In this document: piece after piece, positions 559-34,950 of the stretch
How positions within the stretch are numbered: position 1 is the stretch's first letter
Layout of the letters: each line of letters starts with the position of its first letter
DNA from: a virus
Length of the DNA stretch: 36,027 bases
Virus record (IMG/VR): IMGVR_UViG_3300031578_000169
Location: 1 to 36,027 of that record
Direction: 5' to 3' (one strand)
Notes under the pieces: model-generated
What the model was told of the DNA's origin: nothing
Databases searched by the model: none
The model's input: the letters and a program-made list of their open reading frames with translations, nothing else
Made by a program: the position numbers and the translations under genes

Positions 559-1517
559 AAAAGATAGCGATTCTGTTTTTGGCGGCAGTTTTTATTTTCT
601 GCGCGGGTGATGCTTTCGCGGGGGCGGGTGACATTGTCCTGGACCCTGTTTTGCTCTCGGAGATTGAGAGTACGGATAAGTCGGGCGACGATGAAACTCT
701 CATCACAGGTACGGCAGGCACGAGTACATATGCGGCTGTCTGGGATGCTAATGGGGATTTGGTTGACGGTCCTGGTGTGCCGGCGATCACTGATTTGAGC
801 AACATCGCATCGACAGCTATCCCGGTGTCACTGATCTCGGATACTGCTGGGACCGACGATCTTGGAACTGAGGCTATCTTCTGGCAGACCCTTTATCTCA
901 AAAGCATCATCAGTTTTGAGGGCGCGACGGACAATGAGTTTCAGACCAGCCTCACAGTGACCGATCCTACGGCAGACCATACAATCACGATCCCTGCCAG
1001 CGATCAGACAATCGGTGTGGCTACATCGGCTGCAGCAGACGCAATCGACGCTATCACCGAGATTGCTGCGGCTCTGAAGACTGGGGCTGACACAAAGCTC
1101 TGTACAGGTACGGCTGGGGCCGATGGTAATGTCGCTACCTGGGATGCCTCCGGTGACTTGGTGGACGGCGGGGCTGTTGCGCCTGGGTCCTTCGGTACGG
1201 GGGTTGCCCAAACCGCAGCATCCGGAATAATCACCACCACTGCTAACGAAAACTTCGTCATAGTCACCGGAGAGGGTGATGTTGCTGACGCCATAACCGA
1301 GGTTGTACTGACATCCGGCGCGGTAGGCGACATTATGGTTTTCAAGGGCAAAACCGGCTTGGCTTACGACCTTACCTGGACGGACGGTGCCTATTTGGAG
1401 CTTCAGGGTGGTGCAAACTTTGTGATGAACAACGAGGCTGACATGCTCACCCTAGTTTGTACAACTCTTGGGGCAAATGAAGTATTTACCGAGATTGCCC
1501 GGTCTAGCGGGAACTGA
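555..1517 (+). CDS. exported fibre-like protein with internal repeats
   Basis: 320 residues preceded by AGGAGA. Residues 1-22 are a signal peptide ending AFA before GAG. The mature protein is rich in Gly, Ala, Thr and Asp and has an internal duplication: GTAGTSTYAAVWDANGDLVDG near residue 52 and GTAGADGNVATWDASGDLVDG near residue 185. The block TSLTVTDPTADHTITIPASD is typical of phage tail or head fibres. The C-terminus resembles the end of the partial gene at the left edge. A fibre-like fold is therefore likely, but a Sec signal is unusual for a virion protein, which assembles in the cytoplasm. It could be a surface-exported adhesin carried by the phage. Confidence 0.6.
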   Translation: MKKIAILFLAAVFIFCAGDAFAGAGDIVLDPVLLSEIESTDKSGDDETLITGTAGTSTYAAVWDANGDLVDGPGVPAITDLSNIASTAIPVSLISDTAGTDDLGTEAIFWQTLYLKSIISFEGATDNEFQTSLTVTDPTADHTITIPASDQTIGVATSAAADAIDAITEIAAALKTGADTKLCTGTAGADGNVATWDASGDLVDGGAVAPGSFGTGVAQTAASGIITTTANENFVIVTGEGDVADAITEVVLTSGAVGDIMVFKGKTGLAYDLTWTDGAYLELQGGANFVMNNEADMLTLVCTTLGANEVFTEIARSSGN

Positions 1518-1534
1518 TCAGGCCCAAATTGTAC

Positions 1535-1565
1535 GCAGGACGCTCCTGTTATGGGGGCGTCCTGC
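1535..1565 (+). other. strong intergenic hairpin
   Basis: GCAGGACGC at 1535-1543 pairs perfectly with GCGTCCTGC at 1557-1565. Four more pairs, including wobbles, can close the loop down to GTTAT. It lies between the 555-1517 stop and the ATG at 1584. No T-run follows, so a classical intrinsic terminator is unlikely; an mRNA processing or stability element is possible. Confidence 0.4.
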
Positions 1566-1583
1566 CTCAACCGGAGACAGAAT

Positions 1584-2429
1584 ATGAGGCGAATACTTTG
1601 CATCACGTTAATAGCCATATTTTTTGGTCTTCCTAATCTTGCCTCCGGTGCTTCTGTTGGGGGAGACCAAGTTCTCTACAATTCCGAGGGTGGCATTAGT
1701 TCTGGTGCTGCCGACGGTAAACACCGTCTCAATATATCAAACAGCGGCGCGGAGACTTTCACCGAAGTCGATGGTGATGTCTGGTATCGCAAAGATACAA
1801 ACATCTGGTTTTTCTACGATGGCGCCGAATGGGATTGGTTTATTACAAATGAGGCTGTCGAGGGCAACACCGAAACCGGGATCACGGTCACAGCTCAAGC
1901 GGATGGAACAATTGATTTTGTTACTGATGTTATCCAGGCGGAAGTAGATGCAAAACTTGCGCTTACCGGTGGCACGATGACCGGAGCGATCACCCTCAAC
2001 GACGACGCCAGCCTCAAAATCGACGCAACCCCGGACGGCATGGCGGACGACAAATACAACGGGATCACGATAACAGGGCTCAACTTCGGTGAAACCGTGG
2101 GTCAATGGGCGTGTGTGTTTCTGGCGGCAGACGGCAAGCTCGACATTGCCGACGCTGATGCTGCGGGTGAGTACCCTGCTCTTGGGATCGTGGTCGCCGG
2201 GGGTGACGACACCGACCCGGCGATCGTGCTTGTGCAGGGAGTTGTGAGAAACGAGGGTTGGACAGGTCTAACGGTCGGTGGTGCCGTGTACTTAGGTGAC
2301 GGCGGTGCAGGGGCGATCACCCAGACCGCGCCGTCTACCACTGATGATTGTGTCCAGGCAATCGGTCGGGCTCTGTCCGACAGTGAAATCTACTTCAACT
2401 TCACGATGGATTACTTCCAGGCTGAATAA
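1584..2429 (+). CDS. exported fibre-like protein
   Basis: 281 residues from the ATG at 1584, preceded by GGAGACAG. An upstream in-frame ATG at 1551 lies inside the hairpin and is less likely. Residues 1-22 are a signal peptide (MRRILC, hydrophobic core, LASG). The mature protein contains VWYRKDTNIWFFYDGAEWDWF near residue 64, LTGGTMTGAI (a phage fibre repeat motif) near residue 131, and a C-terminal region with VGGAVYLGDGGAGAITQ and CVQAIGRALSDSEIYF that is common at the ends of phage fibre and decoration proteins. As with its neighbours, export signal and fibre architecture are combined. Confidence 0.6.
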   Translation: MRRILCITLIAIFFGLPNLASGASVGGDQVLYNSEGGISSGAADGKHRLNISNSGAETFTEVDGDVWYRKDTNIWFFYDGAEWDWFITNEAVEGNTETGITVTAQADGTIDFVTDVIQAEVDAKLALTGGTMTGAITLNDDASLKIDATPDGMADDKYNGITITGLNFGETVGQWACVFLAADGKLDIADADAAGEYPALGIVVAGGDDTDPAIVLVQGVVRNEGWTGLTVGGAVYLGDGGAGAITQTAPSTTDDCVQAIGRALSDSEIYFNFTMDYFQAE

Positions 2430-3376: not shown

Positions 3377-5763
3377 AAAGAATACGGAATGTTTTAATAG
3401 GCTTGATCCTCGCCGTTGCCGTTCCTGGATGGGCAACGACCTATACGGTTTGCTCGTCCGGCTGCGATGAGACTACGATCCAGGCGGTTTTTGACAACAA
3501 TGACCTCGGGACTGATGACATCATAGATGTCACCGATTCCGGGATCTATCGAGAACTCGTAACCTGGGGATCGAATGACGGAGGAAGTTCTGGACAACCA
3601 GTTGTATTGAGGTCTACAGGAGGGGCCTCGATCTATGGTTCAGAAGAGAAAAACGATGCGGAAGACTGGACCAATGAGGGCGGAGGTGGAGAAAGTGGCG
3701 GTCTTTTGGTAGTCGATCTTGAGGAAGGTGACACAAGTGACTGGACAAGTACTCAAGTAGGCGGTACAGCCACGGTCGCAGCCTCAGAAGGTTCAAAGCA
3801 TGAAGGTATTTATGGGATGGTCGTCACAGGTGATGGGTCTACCCTGACCATCTATGGCGAGAAGACTTTCACTGAGACTGATGACGTTTATGTCAGAATC
3901 TATTTTTATATCCCAGACGGGGCATCCCTGGGTGCTTCTGGATCAACGCGATCAATTAGGGCATTTTCGATCAACGATGGAACAACAATATGTTCTTCTT
4001 TCCTACTCAAACAGGACTATGATGTAAGTCAAATAGACTCAGTAACGTGGTCACTCGAAACTCCTTGGGTAGGTGAACAAGGTCACACCGACATCAGCAC
4101 AAATACGTGGTACTACACAGAAATGCGGTATAAAGGCGGTGACGCTGATACTGGAGGGGCGCAATTTTGGCTAAATGGAGTATCGAAGTATAGCAGTTTC
4201 ATACAAAACACAAGTACTGCTCATCCAGACAGAGCTAGAGTCGGTTCGCTATCTACTTATCAGGGTTCGGGCGTCTTACAAAGTGCTCACACATTATATT
4301 TTGACGACATCAAAGGTGATACATCTCAGGTAGGTGCTTATTCCGGGAGTTCGGGAAATCTCTGGTATGCAACCGTCACAAGCGAACCTAATCTAGTCTG
4401 GAGGGATACGGGCGGTGGCTTTTCACCCATGACGGAAGTTGCGGCCAAGGAGGATTGTGATTCAGATGGTGAATGGTGGTGGGATTCGGGAAATACCAGG
4501 GTTTATGTCTATGACACGGATAACCCAACCACGGGCAGTGTCAAGTTTGAAATTCCCCAGAGAGCCAACTGCATCGCCGCTGATGCGAACGTGGATTATG
4601 TGACGGTTGATGGTCTTATTTGCCAGTTTGCAAACGAACAAGGGATTTTGGCGAGCACAGGTCGAGATTATTGGACGGTCCAGACTTGCTCTGTGGCCTA
4701 CACCTATAAGACGGGAATTTACTTCAACGCCTGCTCCAATGCTCAGGCCATAGGAAACACAGTTTCCTACTGCGGGAACATGCCTGAATCCCCTGATCCT
4801 ACGACCGCACCCCAGACAGGGATTGTGTTAGATACGATCACAACAGGATTAGTCCAGGCCAATGAAGTCAGTTATACGGGGCGAACGGGCATCCTCATCA
4901 ACGCCGATAGTTCAAATGTGACGGCTGAATATAATGAGGTCCACCATACTGGGCAAGTCGGGCACCATGGATACGGAATTCAGATGTATGGGATCACCGG
5001 CACAGCCCAGACCGGGACCATTGTTAGACACAATAAGCTGCACGATAACGGAAACATCGATATCTACTTCTTGAATAAAGTATCTGGGCCGAAGGTGTAC
5101 GGTAACATCTGCGACAATCCGAAGCAGAACGCGAAAGGTTCCGATTGGTTTGCTAACATCGCCGTTGACAACACGACCGGAACGCCGGGAGATGACACGT
5201 CCAGCCTTGAGCTTTCAAATAATACCTTCTATCTGGATTCGACCGACAAGGATGCCTATAACATCTACGTGAACTATGTCGATGGTGTCTATCCGGCCAA
5301 AATCGAAGGAGCGTTGATAAATAACAACATCATCGTAAATGATGAATTAGGTCAACTCGCTTATTCGACTTATAGTAGTGTGACGCATACGATACCACCA
5401 ACCTTTAATTATAACAGGTACGATATTAACAATTCAAATATTGTCTACTATGAAGGAAACACTCGAACATTTGCCACCTTCCAGTCTGAGGACTCACAGG
5501 AAGCAAACGGATCATCAGGTGATCCCCTGATGACCGATCCGGCAAATGGGGATTTCACTCTCCAACCCTCCTCCCCCTGCATAGATGCGGGAGTGGATCT
5601 GGGGGATACCTATGATGACGGTCTTGATCCCGATTCATCCTGGCCCGATTCCGTATTAACCCTAGACCAAGACTCCTACGGCTCCGGCTGGGAAATCGGG
5701 GCGTATATATATGAATCTGGAAAGCCTGTTCTCAGCGGCTCCATCGCGGGGGAAATTCAATGA
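3373..5763 (+). CDS. exported parallel beta-helix protein with lectin-like insert
   Basis: 796 residues. Residues 1-21 are a signal peptide. Residues about 22-80 and 350-740 have right-handed beta-helix repeats (NNDLGTDDIIDV, VDYVTVDGLICQF, NAQAIGNTVSYCGN, GILINADSSNVTAEYNEVHHTG). Residues about 110-320 look like an inserted concanavalin-type domain. The end (DPANGDFTLQPSSPCIDAGVD) is the hallmark closing segment of secreted beta-helix proteins of the choice-of-anchor Q type. Phage tailspikes and polysaccharide lyases share this helix, but the export signal points to a secreted or surface protein. It is the largest of the five exported products. Confidence 0.65.
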   Translation: MKRIRNVLIGLILAVAVPGWATTYTVCSSGCDETTIQAVFDNNDLGTDDIIDVTDSGIYRELVTWGSNDGGSSGQPVVLRSTGGASIYGSEEKNDAEDWTNEGGGGESGGLLVVDLEEGDTSDWTSTQVGGTATVAASEGSKHEGIYGMVVTGDGSTLTIYGEKTFTETDDVYVRIYFYIPDGASLGASGSTRSIRAFSINDGTTICSSFLLKQDYDVSQIDSVTWSLETPWVGEQGHTDISTNTWYYTEMRYKGGDADTGGAQFWLNGVSKYSSFIQNTSTAHPDRARVGSLSTYQGSGVLQSAHTLYFDDIKGDTSQVGAYSGSSGNLWYATVTSEPNLVWRDTGGGFSPMTEVAAKEDCDSDGEWWWDSGNTRVYVYDTDNPTTGSVKFEIPQRANCIAADANVDYVTVDGLICQFANEQGILASTGRDYWTVQTCSVAYTYKTGIYFNACSNAQAIGNTVSYCGNMPESPDPTTAPQTGIVLDTITTGLVQANEVSYTGRTGILINADSSNVTAEYNEVHHTGQVGHHGYGIQMYGITGTAQTGTIVRHNKLHDNGNIDIYFLNKVSGPKVYGNICDNPKQNAKGSDWFANIAVDNTTGTPGDDTSSLELSNNTFYLDSTDKDAYNIYVNYVDGVYPAKIEGALINNNIIVNDELGQLAYSTYSSVTHTIPPTFNYNRYDINNSNIVYYEGNTRTFATFQSEDSQEANGSSGDPLMTDPANGDFTLQPSSPCIDAGVDLGDTYDDGLDPDSSWPDSVLTLDQDSYGSGWEIGAYIYESGKPVLSGSIAGEIQ

Positions 5764-7808: not shown

Positions 7809-8402
7809 ATGGCGAAATATCACGGCAAAGACGCGGCTCTCTATGCTTGGAACGGCACGAGCACGGTCCACACGGATGAGGCTTGCACCGAGGTCACGAC
7901 GACGGCACAGATCACCGACACGGCAAAACGCATCCTCGATCCGAATGAGACACAGACTTTCACAGATAGTGGTGGGAAGAATGTTCTTGACATTGACTAT
8001 ACGATCGGAAAGGCGACTTTTGACGATACCGTAACGATCGTGACGGCGACGGGTAAGCATGTTCTGGTGGCAAACATCACAGAAATCGGGAACCTTTTTG
8101 GATGGAATATTGAAACCTCTCTTGATCTTGTCGAGGCTGCCTCGTTTGGTGATACATGGAAATCGAGTGAGGCTGGCATGATGAAATGGTCAGGCGGGGC
8201 CGAGGGGTATTTCCTCAACGACTATTGGAGCGATGCCCAAGCCCTTCTCAAGATGTGGCTCGTCAAGTTTTTCACCGATGCCGACACGTACTTCATGGGG
8301 TGGTGCCATCTACCGGGGCTCTCGCAGGGAGCGAGTGTCAGTGAGATTGTCAAGGAATCGATCACGATCGACGGCTACAAACATATGCTTTTAGTACCAT
8401 AA
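7809..8402 (+). CDS. tail tube paralogue, copy 2, with inserted domain
   Basis: 197 residues. It shares MAKYHGK with copy 1 and has FGWNIETSLDLVEAASFGDTWKSSEAGMMKWSG matching copy 1's central segment in order. About 70 extra residues lie between these parts (from ALYAWNG to ITEIG), with alternating strands typical of an added Ig-like or surface domain. The C-terminus (SEIVKESITIDGYKHMLLVP) differs from copy 1. It may be a minor tube protein, a tube-end protein or a decorated version of the tube. The RBS is GGGGGTG. Confidence 0.65.
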   Translation: MAKYHGKDAALYAWNGTSTVHTDEACTEVTTTAQITDTAKRILDPNETQTFTDSGGKNVLDIDYTIGKATFDDTVTIVTATGKHVLVANITEIGNLFGWNIETSLDLVEAASFGDTWKSSEAGMMKWSGGAEGYFLNDYWSDAQALLKMWLVKFFTDADTYFMGWCHLPGLSQGASVSEIVKESITIDGYKHMLLVP

Positions 8403-8413
8403 GGAGGTAAATC

Positions 8414-8710
8414 ATGAAATCTATCTTAGTCAACGAAATCAAATGCCTTTACAGCCCGGAAGAGGTTCGCAAGGCCGAGACTGATGCCGAGGTGATCGTG
8501 TGTCTGAAGGACGGCAAGGGCAACCCGATTTTTTCTCCGATGCGGGCAGGAAGGATCGCGGGGCGAAAACAATGGTTCGGGACGATTGATGAGATGAAGC
8601 AGGGAGCCCAGGAGAGCGAGAAAAAGCAGACGACAAAAGAGGGAGTCTATGAAAGCGGACGAGATCAAAAAAAGAGCGGCCGAGGCCGAGGGAAAACTAA
8701 GAAATCATGA
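8414..8710 (+). CDS. small protein upstream of tail chaperone
   Basis: 98 residues with AGGAGG upstream. The N-terminal half (MKSILVNEIKCLYSPEEVRKAE) is compact; the C-terminus is Lys/Arg/Gly-rich (DQKKSGRGRGKTKKS) and probably disordered. Its last 62 bases overlap the chaperone gene in another frame. Possibly a tail assembly factor; no family recognised. The long overlap suggests that the C-terminal extension may be dispensable. Confidence 0.55.
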   Translation: MKSILVNEIKCLYSPEEVRKAETDAEVIVCLKDGKGNPIFSPMRAGRIAGRKQWFGTIDEMKQGAQESEKKQTTKEGVYESGRDQKKSGRGRGKTKKS

Positions 8711-12476: not shown

Positions 12477-13678
12477 GTGTGTCGAAGCACTACACGATTT
12501 GTCAATTCAACGGCTTCCTCGGTGGGCGGATCATCGGCGGGCCGTGGGAGTTCAACGTCGAAATCGTCTCCTATGCCCTCGGGGCGGTCGGGTGGAAGAT
12601 CATCTTCTACGACAAGGCTGACAAGACCCAGAAGGTAGGCGAGCTTTCGAGCGACACGGGACAGGGATACGTCTCGGAAATCGGTTTCAATTTGGTCGAG
12701 ACCGGTTGCGGAGATTTTGAAATCACCCTCGGGGTGGCACCATCAGCCCTCCCCTTCACGGTCGAGTACAATCAGGGCGTCGAGATTTACCTCTATCACG
12801 ACTCGAACCCCTGGCATGCAGGATATATCTTTGAAATGCCCGTCTCCGGCTCGACCGAGCGGCCATGGAAAATCGCGGGATCAGGATACTACAACCAGCT
12901 TGAGAAGTGCGTGGTGAATAAGGACTATACCTCAGAGGAAATCTCCGCCATCGTGCGGGATTTGGTGGATGACTTTGTCGAGGAGAAGACCGACATCGTC
13001 TATGCCGACTATAAGATCGCGATGACTGATTATACGGTTTCAGATATTCAATTCAACCACACGACCGCAAAGAAGGCGATTGAACAGCTTGCGGACCTTG
13101 CCCAAGGTTTTGTGTTTGGAGTGGATGCAAACCGGGAGATCTTCTTTCGGGGGATCGATCCAGACGTGAACCCTTCAGCCATTTTTGCGGTGGGAAAACA
13201 CATCGATGAATTCAGATTAACTGAGAATGCAGAGGACGTAGTCAATCGAGTTTATGTCAAGGTGGGTCTCTCTACCGGAGGGACGAATATACAGGCCGAG
13301 GTCTCGGCCTATAACTCTCAGGTCCTCTATGGGATCAGGGAAAAGGTTCTCAGCGCCCCGTCACTCCAGAGCACGAATGACGCCATTCGATGGGGGAATT
13401 GGCAGCTTGACGATTTGAAGCGGCCGCGGCAGAAAGCAAGAATTCCGTGGACCAACTGCTCAGGCGGCAAGATCGAGGCTAAGGGCAAGGCCCGGATATT
13501 CGACAATGACGGGGGAAAGCACCAGATTTCGGTCAAGAAGGTTGCCTACTCGGTAGACTCTAACGGAATCGGGTGCTCTATTGAGCTCGGAGACTTGGAA
13601 AAAAGCGCAGGGCGGATACTGAGAGACATCCTTTTTGATATCGCGAATCAAGAGCTTATCCAGGAAGCGAACGCATAG
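12473..13678 (+). CDS. tail hub / tail-associated protein (gp27-like)
   Basis: 401 residues. Features of baseplate hub proteins: a strand-rich N-domain, GVEIYLYHDSNPWHAGYIFEMP, the glycan-free hub stretch WKIAGSGYYNQLEKCVVNKDYT, and a central domain with FNHTTAKKAIEQLADLAQGFVFGVDANREIFFRG, which resembles gpD/gp27-type proteins. It follows Dit and the coiled-coil protein and precedes a fibre, the usual siphophage order. It lacks any lysozyme or peptidase tail domain, so it is the short form of Tal. Confidence 0.65.
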   Translation: MSVSKHYTICQFNGFLGGRIIGGPWEFNVEIVSYALGAVGWKIIFYDKADKTQKVGELSSDTGQGYVSEIGFNLVETGCGDFEITLGVAPSALPFTVEYNQGVEIYLYHDSNPWHAGYIFEMPVSGSTERPWKIAGSGYYNQLEKCVVNKDYTSEEISAIVRDLVDDFVEEKTDIVYADYKIAMTDYTVSDIQFNHTTAKKAIEQLADLAQGFVFGVDANREIFFRGIDPDVNPSAIFAVGKHIDEFRLTENAEDVVNRVYVKVGLSTGGTNIQAEVSAYNSQVLYGIREKVLSAPSLQSTNDAIRWGNWQLDDLKRPRQKARIPWTNCSGGKIEAKGKARIFDNDGGKHQISVKKVAYSVDSNGIGCSIELGDLEKSAGRILRDILFDIANQELIQEANA

Positions 13679-27395: not shown

Positions 27396-27702
27396 GGTTC
27401 CCCTCCAATGGCTTAACATCCGGCCTAAATTCACAAAATTTATTTTGCCAATGAAATAATGACTGAACAGCTTTTTTTGCTTCATCCGAGCATTCCGAAA
27501 CATCGAGGCGGGTGATATGACAAATCAGTTGCCACACCAAACGATCATCCACTTTCGCATTAAATGAACCACACCAGAGAGGCCAACATGAGAAATCGAG
27601 ATTCGCTCCCCTGAGATTCGCTCCCCCGAGATTCGCTCCGCTCAAGATTTCAATGTCAATTACCTTAATCACTTCTTGGGTAAACCGATTTATGATTTTC
27701 AT
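27382..27702 (-). CDS. pentapeptide-repeat-containing small protein
   Basis: 106 residues from ATG 27702, with GAGGAG upstream. The N-terminus (INRFTQEVIKVIDIEILSGAN) leads to three to four repeats of the A(N)LxG type (GANLGGANLRGANLDF), the start of a right-handed quadrilateral helix. The repeat run is very short. The remainder contains WPLWCGSFNAKVDDRLVWQLI, as in small phage and host proteins of unknown function. Confidence 0.6.
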   Translation of the reverse strand: MKIINRFTQEVIKVIDIEILSGANLGGANLRGANLDFSCWPLWCGSFNAKVDDRLVWQLICHITRLDVSECSDEAKKAVQSLFHWQNKFCEFRPDVKPLEGNHESL

Positions 27703-28033
27703 TCTTTCTCCTCTCTTCAAACAATTTCATCTGGCCAGCCAGAGCGTCCGCGCTCGCCCGGTCGAATGCCCTGAGCCGCTTCCATAATTCCAGGACACGG
27801 GACCGGAGCTGATTGACGTACTGTGTCTTTTCTGTCTCAGTCCGGACAATGAAAAGACCATAGGGCGGCCTGGTGGATGATGCTACCGGATGGCCGGCCT
27901 GGGTGAGTTCGAGTGCGTCGGCCCGGACCTGACGGCCAGAAATCCCAAGGCGTTGTGCTAGTCTCGCAACCCGGATGGGTCTGTCAGATCCGATAGCCTC
28001 TTGTGCTAAGATGCCCAATAATTCAACGTTCAC
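27665..28033 (-). CDS. HTH protein, unknown role in early operon
   Basis: 122 residues from GTG 28033, which has a strong GGGAGG; the TTG at 28111 would add 26 unconserved-looking residues. The N-domain VELLGILAQEAIGSDRPIRVARLAQRLGISGRQVRADALELTQAG is a winged HTH of the kind found in DeoR-like and phage regulators. The C-terminus is helical and basic. Its 3' end overlaps the pentapeptide gene by 38 bases. Confidence 0.55.
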   Translation of the reverse strand: MNVELLGILAQEAIGSDRPIRVARLAQRLGISGRQVRADALELTQAGHPVASSTRPPYGLFIVRTETEKTQYVNQLRSRVLELWKRLRAFDRASADALAGQMKLFEERRKNENHKSVYPRSD

Positions 28034-28107
28034 GATTTTACCTCCCGGCCCCCCGTACGCCCCTCTCCGTCCAGAGTGGTTCACTTCGGGGGGCCTGGGT
28101 GTGAGAG

Positions 28108-28338
28108 TCAACTATCCAACCGCCGCCAGACTTCCGTTAGCCTGCCATCGAAGTCCGGTCCAAAGGCCAACACGTTGATGATCTCCGAACATGTAGGAAA
28201 CTCCTCAGGTAGAAATGGCCCAAGTTCTTCCAATGGCTTCCCGTCTTTGCAGATATAGAGAAGATCTTTGCCCCGATCATGGTTGACCGAATAGTACGGG
28301 CTATCTCCTCCTTGCATACAGCCGACCATGGTGATCAT
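28108..28338 (-). CDS. small phage protein, unknown
   Basis: 76 residues, RBS GGGAGG. Contains PYYSVNHDRGKDLLYICKDGKPL and LPEEFPTCSEIINVLAFGPDF. It fits tightly between its neighbours in the early leftward operon, three bases after the preceding stop. No family recognised. Confidence 0.5.
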   Translation of the reverse strand: MITMVGCMQGGDSPYYSVNHDRGKDLLYICKDGKPLEELGPFLPEEFPTCSEIINVLAFGPDFDGRLTEVWRRLDS

Positions 28339-28340
28339 CG

Positions 28341-28589
28341 TTAACCTCCCTTCTTGTGCTTAACTGCCAGCCTGTCCTGGGAGGCCGTTATGTCCCCAAG
28401 ATTCGCGCCCCGATCGGCTGGTCTGCGCGTAACTTCCCTCACGGCATCAACGCTACTCGGCTCTTTTTGGCCCTTCGCTCCGCCACGGCTATAGGAATTT
28501 CTAAAAGCCCACGGGCCACCCAGGGGAGTCGGACCCCCAAGGTTACTAACGTCATTGGCCATGCGCCCGGCGATGGTCGTGGGCCTCAT
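28341..28589 (-). CDS. small phage protein, unknown (low complexity)
   Basis: 82 residues from ATG 28589 (MRPTTIAGRMANDVSNLGGP), with GGGAGGAG upstream. Rich in Gly, Pro, Arg and Ser, so probably disordered (WAFRNSYSRGGAKGQKEPSS). A longer frame from 28682 lacks an RBS. The opposite-strand frame over the same bases looks less gene-like. Confidence is low because of the composition. Confidence 0.35.
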   Translation of the reverse strand: MRPTTIAGRMANDVSNLGGPTPLGGPWAFRNSYSRGGAKGQKEPSSVDAVREVTRRPADRGANLGDITASQDRLAVKHKKGG

Positions 28590-28593
28590 CTCC

Positions 28594-28689
28594 TCAACTC
28601 CTCCCCCACACCGCCAGCAAAAACGCGGCGGCGAAACAACCGAGAACCAAGTAGGCTCCTTTTTCGAGAAGATAGGCTTCAAGCATCAT
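28594..28689 (-). CDS. 31-residue single-helix membrane protein candidate
   Basis: MMLEAYLLEKG is followed by one hydrophobic helix (AYLVLGCFAAAFLLAVWG) and stops four bases before the next start. It would be the first gene after PL. Its RBS is weak (GAGAG), and a 17-codon frame (28679-28732) overlaps its start. Small phage membrane peptides of this kind exist, but this one is tentative. Confidence 0.35.
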   Translation of the reverse strand: MMLEAYLLEKGAYLVLGCFAAAFLLAVWGRS

Positions 28690-28768
28690 CAGGGCTCTCT
28701 TTTTCGATAAGGCTGGTTGAGTTAAGGTCCATAACCTCGTGATCCTAACTCATAGGTTTGAAAGCATA

Positions 28769-28804
28769 CGAGTTATATATATCTCAATTTTTGAGATTTG
28801 TCAA
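28769..28804 (-). promoter_or_regulatory. PL: leftward early promoter with operator
   Basis: Read leftward: TTGACA (28804-28799), 17-base spacer, TATATA (28781-28776). The spacer holds the palindrome ATCTCAATTTTTGAGAT (28781-28797). It is the mirror of PR at 29884. Repressor binding in the spacer would block RNA polymerase. The transcript would run through the recombination and integrase genes. Confidence 0.85.
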
Positions 28805-28827
28805 GAAAAACTTGCAAAAAATGAGAC
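28781..28827. promoter_or_regulatory. OL operators
   Basis: OL1 is the 17-bp palindrome ATCTCAATTTTTGAGAT (28781-28797). A degenerate second copy (CTTGCAAAAAATGAGAC, 28811-28827) is centred 30 bp away, upstream of the -35. This matches the roughly 29-bp spacing of the OR sites on the other side of the repressor, as expected for paired operators. Confidence 0.6.
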
Positions 28828-28972
28828 AAACAAAGGGGAGCCTTTTTGAACGTCCCTGATTCCGAACAAAACCCTGGCTATCAGCTAAAGGGATGTGGTA
28901 TGGTACGGCTAAGAATAGTGAGAGGATGATCAAATATACTAAAAAGGGAGAACTAAAAAGGAGGAGAAAGAC

Positions 28973-29194
28973 ATGAATCAGTTGCCACCGGTTTTGCTCA
29001 GCATTATTATTCTTCTAGGTGTTCTTCTTTTGGTGGCCTATATTATTCTTCCCTTCAATGTCTGGGCGCTACGAGACCATATCAAAGAAATCAGAAAACT
29101 CCTCGATTTGAACGTCCGTGAGACGCGAAAAGAAATCACGGAAATCAAGAGACTCGTGGAAAAGATCGCAGGAGGGAAGGTGTCTGAGCGTTAA
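28973..29194 (+). CDS. small membrane protein next to the repressor
   Basis: 73 residues, RBS AGGAGG. One hydrophobic helix (VLLSIIILLGVLLLVAYIIL) is followed by a charged coiled-coil tail (VRETRKEITEIKRLVEKIAGG). It lies between PL and the repressor, on the strand opposite to both. In temperate phages this place often holds exclusion or lysogenic-conversion genes, but no family is recognised. A clear promoter is not seen. Confidence 0.55.
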   Translation: MNQLPPVLLSIIILLGVLLLVAYIILPFNVWALRDHIKEIRKLLDLNVRETRKEITEIKRLVEKIAGGKVSER

Positions 29195-31141: not shown

Positions 31142-31981
31142 GTGGCGAATCCTCAGCTAGAGAATGGCTATACGAGTATTGCCAACGGCATATTTGAGCA
31201 TCTGGCCAAGCTACGTATTCCGGGTGAAGCGAGGCAAGTCCTCGATTTCATCCTGCGGAAAACGTGGGGCTGGCACAAGAAATCAGACATGATTTCCTTG
31301 AATCAATTCGTAGAAGGAACAGGGCTGAACAAGGTGCATGTATGCCGCGCCATCAATACCCTCCTCGCCATGAATCTCGTTACCAAAAAAGGTAACGCTC
31401 GATTTCACGTTACCCAAAAAGGTAACGCTTCAGAGCTAAGTTATGGATCTCAAATGAATTTTAACAAATCACAAGCGTTACCCAAAAAGGTAACGTCCAC
31501 TTCCCATATTACCCAAAAAGGTAAAGCCACAGCCGCAACCTACGAATTTCAAAAGGATTTTGAGAAATGGAAGGCATTACCCAAAAAGGTAAAGGGTGCT
31601 TTTCACGTTACCCAAAAAGGTAATCGGACGTTACCCAAAAAGGTACCCACAAAAGAAACTATTACAAAAGAAAAAAAGATATGGGCGGGATCGAAAAAAC
31701 CCGACCCGCCCAACACGGCTTTTTTTAAGATCTGGGATCAGAAATTTCAAGAGCATGCTGGAGCCCGATACACCTTCACAGGGCAAAAGGAAACACAGCT
31801 CGTCAAGAAAATGATCGCCACCGACTCTCTTGAGCGGTTGGCTGAGTTGATCGATGTCTTTTGGAGGATTGAGGATGACGAGTTCATAAACCGAGCGGGG
31901 AGAACGATCGGTGTTTTCTATTCTCAGATAAACAAACTCAAGACGGTCGAGATAGACCCATATAAGGAATTCAGAAAATGA
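31142..31981 (+). CDS. replication initiator, phage O-like
   Basis: 279 residues from GTG 31142. NPQLENGYTSIANGIFEHL, IPGEARQVLDFILRKTWGWHKKSDMISLNQFVEGTGLNKVHVCRAINTLLAMNLVTKKG is the lambda-O-type N-terminal DNA-binding domain. The central 85 residues are coded by the iterons. A C-terminal domain from about residue 185 may contact a partner helicase or loader. Its stop overlaps the next start (ATGA), as lambda O precedes P. The protein probably binds its own iterons and opens the DNA. Confidence 0.8.
   Translation: MANPQLENGYTSIANGIFEHLAKLRIPGEARQVLDFILRKTWGWHKKSDMISLNQFVEGTGLNKVHVCRAINTLLAMNLVTKKGNARFHVTQKGNASELSYGSQMNFNKSQALPKKVTSTSHITQKGKATAATYEFQKDFEKWKALPKKVKGAFHVTQKGNRTLPKKVPTKETITKEKKIWAGSKKPDPPNTAFFKIWDQKFQEHAGARYTFTGQKETQLVKKMIATDSLERLAELIDVFWRIEDDEFINRAGRTIGVFYSQINKLKTVEIDPYKEFRK
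31379..31647. repeat. seven iterons (probable replication origin)
   Basis: Seven near-identical 18-bp palindromic repeats with consensus GTTACCCAAAAAGGTAAC start at 31379, 31409, 31477, 31508, 31576, 31607 and 31630. They alternate reading frames: four encode VTQKGN-like and three encode LPKKV-like peptides. Spacings are 30, 68, 31, 68, 31 and 23 bp. Like the lambda origin, they lie inside the initiator gene. Confidence 0.8.
31648..31681. other. AT-rich segment next to the iterons (possible unwinding element)
   Basis: The 34 bases after iteron seven are A-rich (AAAAGAAACTATTACAAAAG). In lambda the AT-rich unwinding element flanks the O-binding sites in the same way. It is coding sequence here as well. 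Confidence 0.45.
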
Positions 31982-33873: not shown

Positions 33874-34497
33874 ATGTGGAATGAAATCAAGGTCAAGATG
33901 GAGTTTGAGGAGAAGCTGTGTGGGTCTGTGCCGCAGAGCAAGGAGCTTGTCAGTGCCTGGTTGAATGCTCGAAAGCCGAAGACAAAACCCAAAGATGCGA
34001 AGCCCTTGGAGGAGATCGAGCAGGAGGTCTTGGATTCGATCCAGGATGCTGAAGAGCGAACAACGCTATCCTTTGAGAGAAATGACCGGGGTTTTTTTGT
34101 ACGGGGAGGAACAATCAAGGCGCACTTGAAAGACTGTGCCAACCAGATCAAGGATGTGGTGGGGGTCAAGGCGTTCCGCTCGAAGATTGCGAATAAGATT
34201 CACGTTTTGGAATACCATATTTATCTGCATAAGAATGGGTCTTGTGTGATGGAATCGGATGGCTCTTTTGAGCAACCCGTGCATGTCATGACACCGCTTG
34301 GTCCGCGCAACGCCCTGAAGGTGATCCACTACGTGGAACAGGCGACGTTGGAGTTCACATTGAAATTGCTTGAGGACAAAGAAGTTAAACCCGGCAGGAT
34401 CGAGAAGCTGTTCGAGTATGGCTCTATCCATGGCTATGGCGGGGAGCGTGGCATGGGCGAGGGACGGTACAGATACACCCTTGACGTCGAGCTCTGA
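33874..34497 (+). CDS. phage protein with RAMP-like features
   Basis: 207 residues, ACGGAGG upstream. Belongs, by sequence style, to a family of conserved phage proteins: N-terminal KVKMEFEEKLCGSVPQSKEL, middle FFVRGGTIKAHLKDCANQI, C-terminal EYGSIHGYGGERGMGEGRYRY. The RGGTIKAHLKD stretch and the Gly-rich end resemble RAMP proteins (Cas5/Cas7-like), where such motifs bind RNA. The TGNNN array starts in its last codons. The RAMP assignment is an inference; no catalytic residue is claimed. Confidence 0.5.
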   Translation: MWNEIKVKMEFEEKLCGSVPQSKELVSAWLNARKPKTKPKDAKPLEEIEQEVLDSIQDAEERTTLSFERNDRGFFVRGGTIKAHLKDCANQIKDVVGVKAFRSKIANKIHVLEYHIYLHKNGSCVMESDGSFEQPVHVMTPLGPRNALKVIHYVEQATLEFTLKLLEDKEVKPGRIEKLFEYGSIHGYGGERGMGEGRYRYTLDVEL

Positions 34498-34816
34498 AAT
34501 GCGGTGATCTGGCGTGGCATGGCGACGAGGAATGGGATGATTTGTTTTGACGTGCCGTCGGGTTCTGAGGTGCGGTGGTATGGGGTGACGCCGAGTTTTG
34601 GTCTGAAATGTCGTGTTGTGCAATGGCGGCGAGAAGTGGGATGGTATGAGATGAGCTGCCGTCGAGTTGTGACATGAGGTGCTTTGAGATGCCGTCGAGG
34701 AATGACGTGTATTGACGTGGTATGGCGACGAGGTCTGATTTGCATTGGGCTGCGATGTATTGACGCCGAGTGGTGAGGTGACATGAATTGGCACGTATTA
34801 TTTTGGTTGACGAGGT
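34482..34816 (+). repeat. nine-unit TGNNN / NCGAGNNN array, noncoding
   Basis: Each unit is TGNCG, NCGAGNNN (one unit has CGGG), then four or five TGNNN pentamers, giving 33 or 38 bases. Unit starts: 34482, 34520, 34553, 34586, 34624, 34657, 34690, 34723, 34761. TG recurs with no exception for 48 pentamers until 34793, after which the end decays to a degenerate tenth CGAG (34811). The triplets differ in every unit. All + frames contain many TGA stops, so it is not translated in that direction. The region holds no gene on the + strand. Confidence 0.85.
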
Positions 34817-34824
34817 GAACCATA

Positions 34825-34950
34825 ATGACACTCAAATTCAGGTGCAAGAAGTGCGGGGCATACCAGGAGCACAAGGTCTATGATATCCCTGACGCGGTCA
34901 GGTGCCAGTACTGCAAGGCGGTGAATAGACGATTCAAGGTTGAGGCATGA
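34825..34950 (+). CDS. 41-residue zinc-ribbon protein
   Basis: MTLKFRCKKCGAYQEHKVY followed by RCQYCKAVNRRF: two CxxC pairs 20 residues apart. The RBS (GAGGTG) is the degenerate last CGAG of the array. Too short for most gene finders. Possibly part of the array locus. Confidence 0.55.
   Translation: MTLKFRCKKCGAYQEHKVYDIPDAVRCQYCKAVNRRFKVEA

Follow-up and report, generated by a model that had tools for sequence, protein, structure and literature searches.

VIPR (Viral Interference Programmable Repeat) was described in a 2026 preprint as a system composed of a phage RAMP protein, Vipr, and RNAs built of YNNGG pentamers (PMC13142463). As presented there, DNA is read by the NN pairs, one base being skipped, and the targets are competing phages; the characterised system binds to DNA in double-stranded form and is active on either strand, and SUSP1 and a P. 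fulva prophage are given as examples (PMC13142463). Two other kinds of RNA-guided systems resemble the locus analyzed here. In TIGR-Tas, too, a phage encodes a single protein together with short guides in a tandem array (PMC12045711). However, our locus is set apart by the description of Tas systems, in which the proteins are not RAMPs but carry a Nop-like domain and the guides pair contiguously (PMC12045711). Type III and type VII CRISPR-Cas share with it filament-forming RNA-guided proteins and many guides split by a constant element, and their backbone proteins (Cas7/Csm3, Csm4) appear to have the same fold and G-rich loop as the protein modelled here. They differ in that our locus has one protein only, no long repeat, an apparently interrupted pairing and a pitch of 5 nt, while theirs is 6 nt. 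Neither the direct repeats of at least 20 bases nor the several cas genes of type III CRISPR-Cas were found. Only a 10-base core recurs in the array, in agreement with the initial annotation, which had excluded CRISPR for want of a 20-base repeat. No cas gene was recognised among the neighbours scanned, and no adaptation genes were recognised beside the array.

The window, that is the whole stretch of DNA analyzed, comprises 36,027 nucleotides of a virus record (IMGVR_UViG_3300031578_000169). As in VIPR, a single phage gene predicted to encode a RAMP protein adjoins a noncoding tandem pentanucleotide array, and constant positions alternate with hypervariable ones in this array. The locus is very probably a phage VIPR-type RNA-guided system, with the array at 34482-34793 representing multiplexed short guides. 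Its features are as follows.

33874..34497, + strand: putative vipr-like RAMP gene, 207 aa, with the G-rich loop HGYGGERGMGEGRY (AlphaFold2, Foldseek, hhalign)
34482..34793, + strand: putative guide array, nine breaks TGNCGNCGAGNNN and 39 TGNNN pentamers (chain and scanner)
34482..34494, + strand: break 1, overlapping the 3' end of the vipr-like gene
34490..34524, + strand: putative guide 1 (AGCTC, five TGNNN, TGGCG), seven repeat steps, boundaries as decoded in relatives
34520..34532, + strand: break 2
34553..34565, + strand: break 3 (CGGG variant)
34586..34598, + strand: break 4
34624..34636, + strand: break 5
34657..34669, + strand: break 6
34690..34702, + strand: break 7
34723..34735, + strand: break 8
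34761..34773, + strand: break 9
34789..34817, + strand: decayed array end with the remnant of a tenth break (GACGAGGTG)

The array is a chain of 48 TG dinucleotides on the + strand, in steps of 5 or 13 bases; the next best TG chain in the 36 kb window, with both strands scanned, is 4 long. The array scanner gave it a score of 176, and shuffled windows never scored above 15. The initial annotation had read 48 consecutive TG-initial pentamers separated by NCGAG. All 48 TGs were recovered, but nine of them begin 13-mers and 39 begin TGNNN pentamers; the separators also exist, but they are more constrained than proposed and read TGNCGNCGAGNNN, one of them (break 3) carrying CGGG. The spacing of 33 or 38 bases, with nine units and a decayed tenth, was described correctly: the units measure 38, 33, 33, 38, 33, 33, 33 and 38 bases in order, followed by a short decaying unit, and the tenth break is degenerate (GACGAG, at about 34809-34817).

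The 3' end of the upstream reading frame (codons L-D-V-E-L-stop) contains break 1. The first 16 bases of the array are therefore coding on the + strand, and the earlier view that this strand is untranslatable holds only for the remainder. On the minus strand all three frames are open over the array, which is a side effect of composition since the 33- and 38-base units shift frame mutually. A protein-coding reading was for the same reason ruled out on either strand, and translation, which had been named as an observation that would speak against the initial interpretation, was not borne out. Slippage alone was also rejected as the origin of the array: Tandem Repeats Finder did not report it, while unit duplications do occur in some relatives. 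The contig L023 has, at 8241-8590, two alternating pairs of almost identical guide units, and these duplicated units, judged from their sequence, indicate array growth by unit duplication. Nothing in Rfam matched within the window. The array did not fold better than its shuffles (z -0.37), and it showed no structured tail but only the short constant break.

Three further features of the window were recorded. A 99-base repeat of about 2.5 copies at 31378-31623, with inverted CGTTACCC/GGTAACG motifs, falls within a phage O-like replication initiation gene (31142-31981) and is a candidate lambda-type replication origin. A 41-aa zinc-ribbon ORF with a weak match to phrog_18378 directly follows the array (34825-34950), and a 15-base tandem repeat is present in 2.9 copies at 27597-27639.

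No family in Pfam or PHROGs was found for the protein encoded at 33874-34497. Its AlphaFold2 model (pLDDT 80) was compared with the PDB by Foldseek, and the best matches were Cas7 of type VII and Csm3 (E 9e-7 to 1e-4, probability 1). The model also matched a viral "Cas system-associated RAMP superfamily protein" (E 4e-12). In a profile search against the PDB, most of the ten weak matches were Csm4 RAMPs, aligned via the G-rich loop. The model thus has the RRM core and G-loop that mark the RAMP protein of VIPR, and the gene, to judge from this predicted structure, encodes a RAMP protein of the type that assembles into filaments along guide RNA. Comparison of the window family (A2) with the SUSP1 Vipr family (A3) by hhalign gave a collinear alignment over 126 columns (E 6e-4), although alignment A4 shows little sequence similarity to a characterised Vipr (12-21%). 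The RAMP fold, the collinear alignment with SUSP1 Vipr and the adjacent array together identify the locus as a VIPR system at the strength given above.

Relatives of the gene were detected by protein search on 46 contigs of IMG/VR, several of them near-copies of one contig, and all 46 have an adjacent same-strand array; conversely, the gene just upstream of the array recurs beside the family arrays. Like the window, which is itself a virus record, these relatives place the system in phages. Of 50,697 named phage records, only that of Microcystis phage Mae-JY09 contained a protein recognisably related to the one of the window. No relative was found in plasmids, nor in 798 sampled bacterial genomes; the bacterial sets contained no positive-control genome. 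A search with one large unassigned protein found no close relatives of the window phage. No accessory gene was common to most family loci. At five loci (L099-L102 and L106), the vipr gene stands between two separate same-strand arrays. The 43 kb contig L007 (IMGVR_UViG_3300043220_000029) carries a good array (1378-1802, minus strand) but no detectable Vipr gene in any of the six frames; either the array is an orphan or the contig is part of a larger genome.

Terminase and portal genes are close neighbours of the locus in many relatives. This position, together with a 5-bp step equal to half a helical turn, would suit an array serving as a double-stranded DNA site (replication, partition or packaging) for the neighbouring protein, with triplets that carry no information. 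Such a role is highly improbable. Helical phasing is lost through the 13-base breaks and the changing length of the units, the neighbouring protein has a fold typical of RNA-binding RAMPs, the arrays keep strictly to a single strand with respect to the gene, and the agreement of the variable bases of relatives with genes of other phages far exceeds the null, as detailed below.

Such arrays were found in about 40 uncultured phage contigs and reach a length of about 2 kb, the longest being about 2.1 kb (L097, with 280 pentamers and 56 breaks). The search for the gapped TG pattern in phage DNA that had been proposed initially returned 32 stretches of IMG/VR, nearly all of which were long arrays by an independent scoring scheme that returns nothing in shuffled sequence. 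An array-pattern scan of genomes gave 21 single matches, most or all of them due to chance. The family consensus was drawn from 45 distinct arrays with 3,315 pentamers and 676 breaks. Position 1 of the pentamer is T in 75% and C in 17%, position 2 is G in 97%, positions 3 and 4 show no base preference, and G makes up 48% at position 5. The triplets, which had been taken as freely variable, are indeed nearly free in the window, but across the 45 arrays the bias at position 5 limits this freedom. The family skeleton is (g)YG-NN, the break consensus is YGNCKNCGAGNNN, and the commonest run between breaks is 4-7 pentamers. The terminal triplet before each break was constrained to NCK in the family arrays (C 77%, G/T 95%). 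This constraint could be PAM-like or related to processing; that the four strongest target matches share the C is suggestive.

A guide was defined as the stretch between breaks, and bases 3 and 4 of the pentamers of 226 guides were read against 2.97 Mb of phage DNA with arrays masked, on both strands and at target periods of 2 to 6. At period 3, six of the 226 guides passed ln p < -19.5, while 20 composition-matched nulls averaged 0.55 and reached a maximum of 2. Reversed guide order gave no guide past this threshold, and periods 2, 4, 5 and 6 gave 1, 0, 0 and 1, which is no excess. The best match, of the L027 guide at 3675 to L274, agreed at 22/22 read positions and at 6/11 skip positions, so that all its mismatches fall at the skip; the L018 guide at 12737 matched L241 at 21/22 read positions. 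At the eight target sites examined, which belong to six guides, the guide is antisense to a GC3-rich ORF and the skip falls on codon position 3. The targets are prohead protease/capsid and other genes of other phages. The sites in L274, L177, L185 and L241 fall within an ORF containing the prohead protease used as query, and this protein has matches among records titled prohead protease or major head protein. As in VIPR, five nucleotides of RNA thus appear to read three of the target, with a 1-nt skip on the codon wobble, and the targets are genes of other phages.

The sequence matches show that bases 3 and 4 correspond to DNA and that base 5 would be skipped. The initial annotation had all three bases of the triplet pair with a target; the first two are read in the relatives, but base 5 is a skip. 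Base 5 agrees with the target slightly above expectation (35/63, p 0.015). Apparent matches obtained when positions 4 and 5 were taken as the reading pair were explained by G/C-rich composition in the null and were discarded. No matches spanned a break, and neighbouring guides did not match adjacent DNA, therefore each unit is considered an independent guide. These identified targets account for only a few per cent of the guides. The guides of the window itself are short, with 12-14 read bases, and the search of these guides against 2.4 Mb of phage DNA yielded only matches at chance level.

The target matches bear on two other readings of the array. In one, the triplets drift freely and the array RNA serves as a scaffold or decoy, either for the RAMP protein or, as an RNA anti-CRISPR, for a type III CRISPR complex of the host. 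The duplicated units of some arrays (L023) may be a sign of such drift, and the 8-base break NCGAGNNN presumably resembles type III crRNA handles. Nevertheless, drifting triplets would not be expected to give period-3 matches, a wobble skip and uniform antisense orientation, and a pitch of 5 nt is at odds with the 6 nt of Cas7 filaments, which makes the scaffold or decoy a very remote prospect. The other concerns the guides themselves, which might act on mRNA through an RNP that binds or cuts transcripts. All six decoded guides are antisense to the matched gene, and RNA targets are bound by Csm3 and type VII Cas7, to which the modelled protein is structurally similar. However, six guides are a small sample (two-sided p about 0.03), and the double-stranded DNA binding on either strand reported in the preprint for characterised VIPR (PMC13142463) speaks against it. 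An action on mRNA is consequently regarded as unlikely, and recognition of DNA by the guides is preferred.

Within VIPR, the present arrays differ from those of SUSP1. The scan recovered pentamer runs flanking the SUSP1 gene pair at 28031-29061, of which Vipr is 195 aa long; these runs agree with the vrRNA positions in PMC13142463 and validate the scan as a positive control. SUSP1-Vipr relatives in Vibrio and Listonella phages use another skeleton, GC(A)/NN. In Mae-JY09 (L062, 5700-6100), a distant Vipr homologue is followed by an array of C-initial pentamers, unannotated in the record, with 33-base units, 8-base CGAC..CC breaks and a lag-5 identity of z 5.2. The other letters in the Vibrio, Listonella and Microcystis relatives suggest that period and unit logic are kept while the letters change.

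The skeleton is (g)YG-NN here and GGY-NN in the main text of the preprint, which also allows "a related consensus" (PMC13142463). The guides here span about 6-13 repeat steps and stand head to tail with 13-base YGNCKNCGAGNNN breaks between them, whereas the main text gives for type II vrRNAs of about 100 nt with 9-16 repeats and a structured 3' tail (PMC13142463). Such an invariant structured tail, reported for the SUSP1 clade and not stated for all VIPR types, is absent here. A vap accessory gene, described as typical of VIPR (PMC13142463), was not seen in constant form at the family loci. It is possible, if somewhat short of probable, that the clade is a distinct VIPR type, found mainly in uncultured environmental phages, with up to dozens of short interrupted-pairing guides in a compact, CRISPR-like array, a fixed 8-13 base delimiter and a single ancestral RAMP protein. 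Since all decoded guides are antisense, this type is possibly aimed at transcripts or the coding strand. The clade may also already be among the seven types of the preprint, in view of the "related consensus" and the staggered arrays in its supplement.

In the proposed mechanism, the Vipr-like RAMP protein encoded at 33874-34497 would work with a same-strand array that specifies eight or nine short guide RNAs, each of which would lie between two breaks and consist of AG-NNN, then TG-NNN repeats, then TG-NCK. By analogy, the RAMP protein would assemble along the RNA, one subunit per pentamer, and hold the constant (Y)G. Bases 3 and 4 would pair with target DNA, and base 5 would face the skipped target base. 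The initial annotation had suggested a UG-punctuated RNA with pairing triplets and UG marking protein steps; the RAMP neighbour, the linkage of gene and array and the target matches in relatives favour this idea, by analogy with known systems. Transcription of the array, cutting at the breaks and RNP formation would proceed as in the published VIPR system. Silencing of competing phages is proposed as the likely role because the guides of relatives match other phages' genes in antisense and skip the wobble base.

VIPR, the newest form of RNA-guided recognition, is a proposed forerunner of CRISPR. The clade described here would employ the same interrupted code on a different skeleton (YG-NN-N) and in dense multi-guide arrays, whose layout with a short constant element is closer to CRISPR arrays than single vrRNAs of about 100 nt. 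It is common in uncultured phages and has readable targets in phage genes such as that of the prohead protease. With a 207-aa protein and units of 33-38 bases, it would offer minimal parts for testing the skip code and the punctuation of guides.
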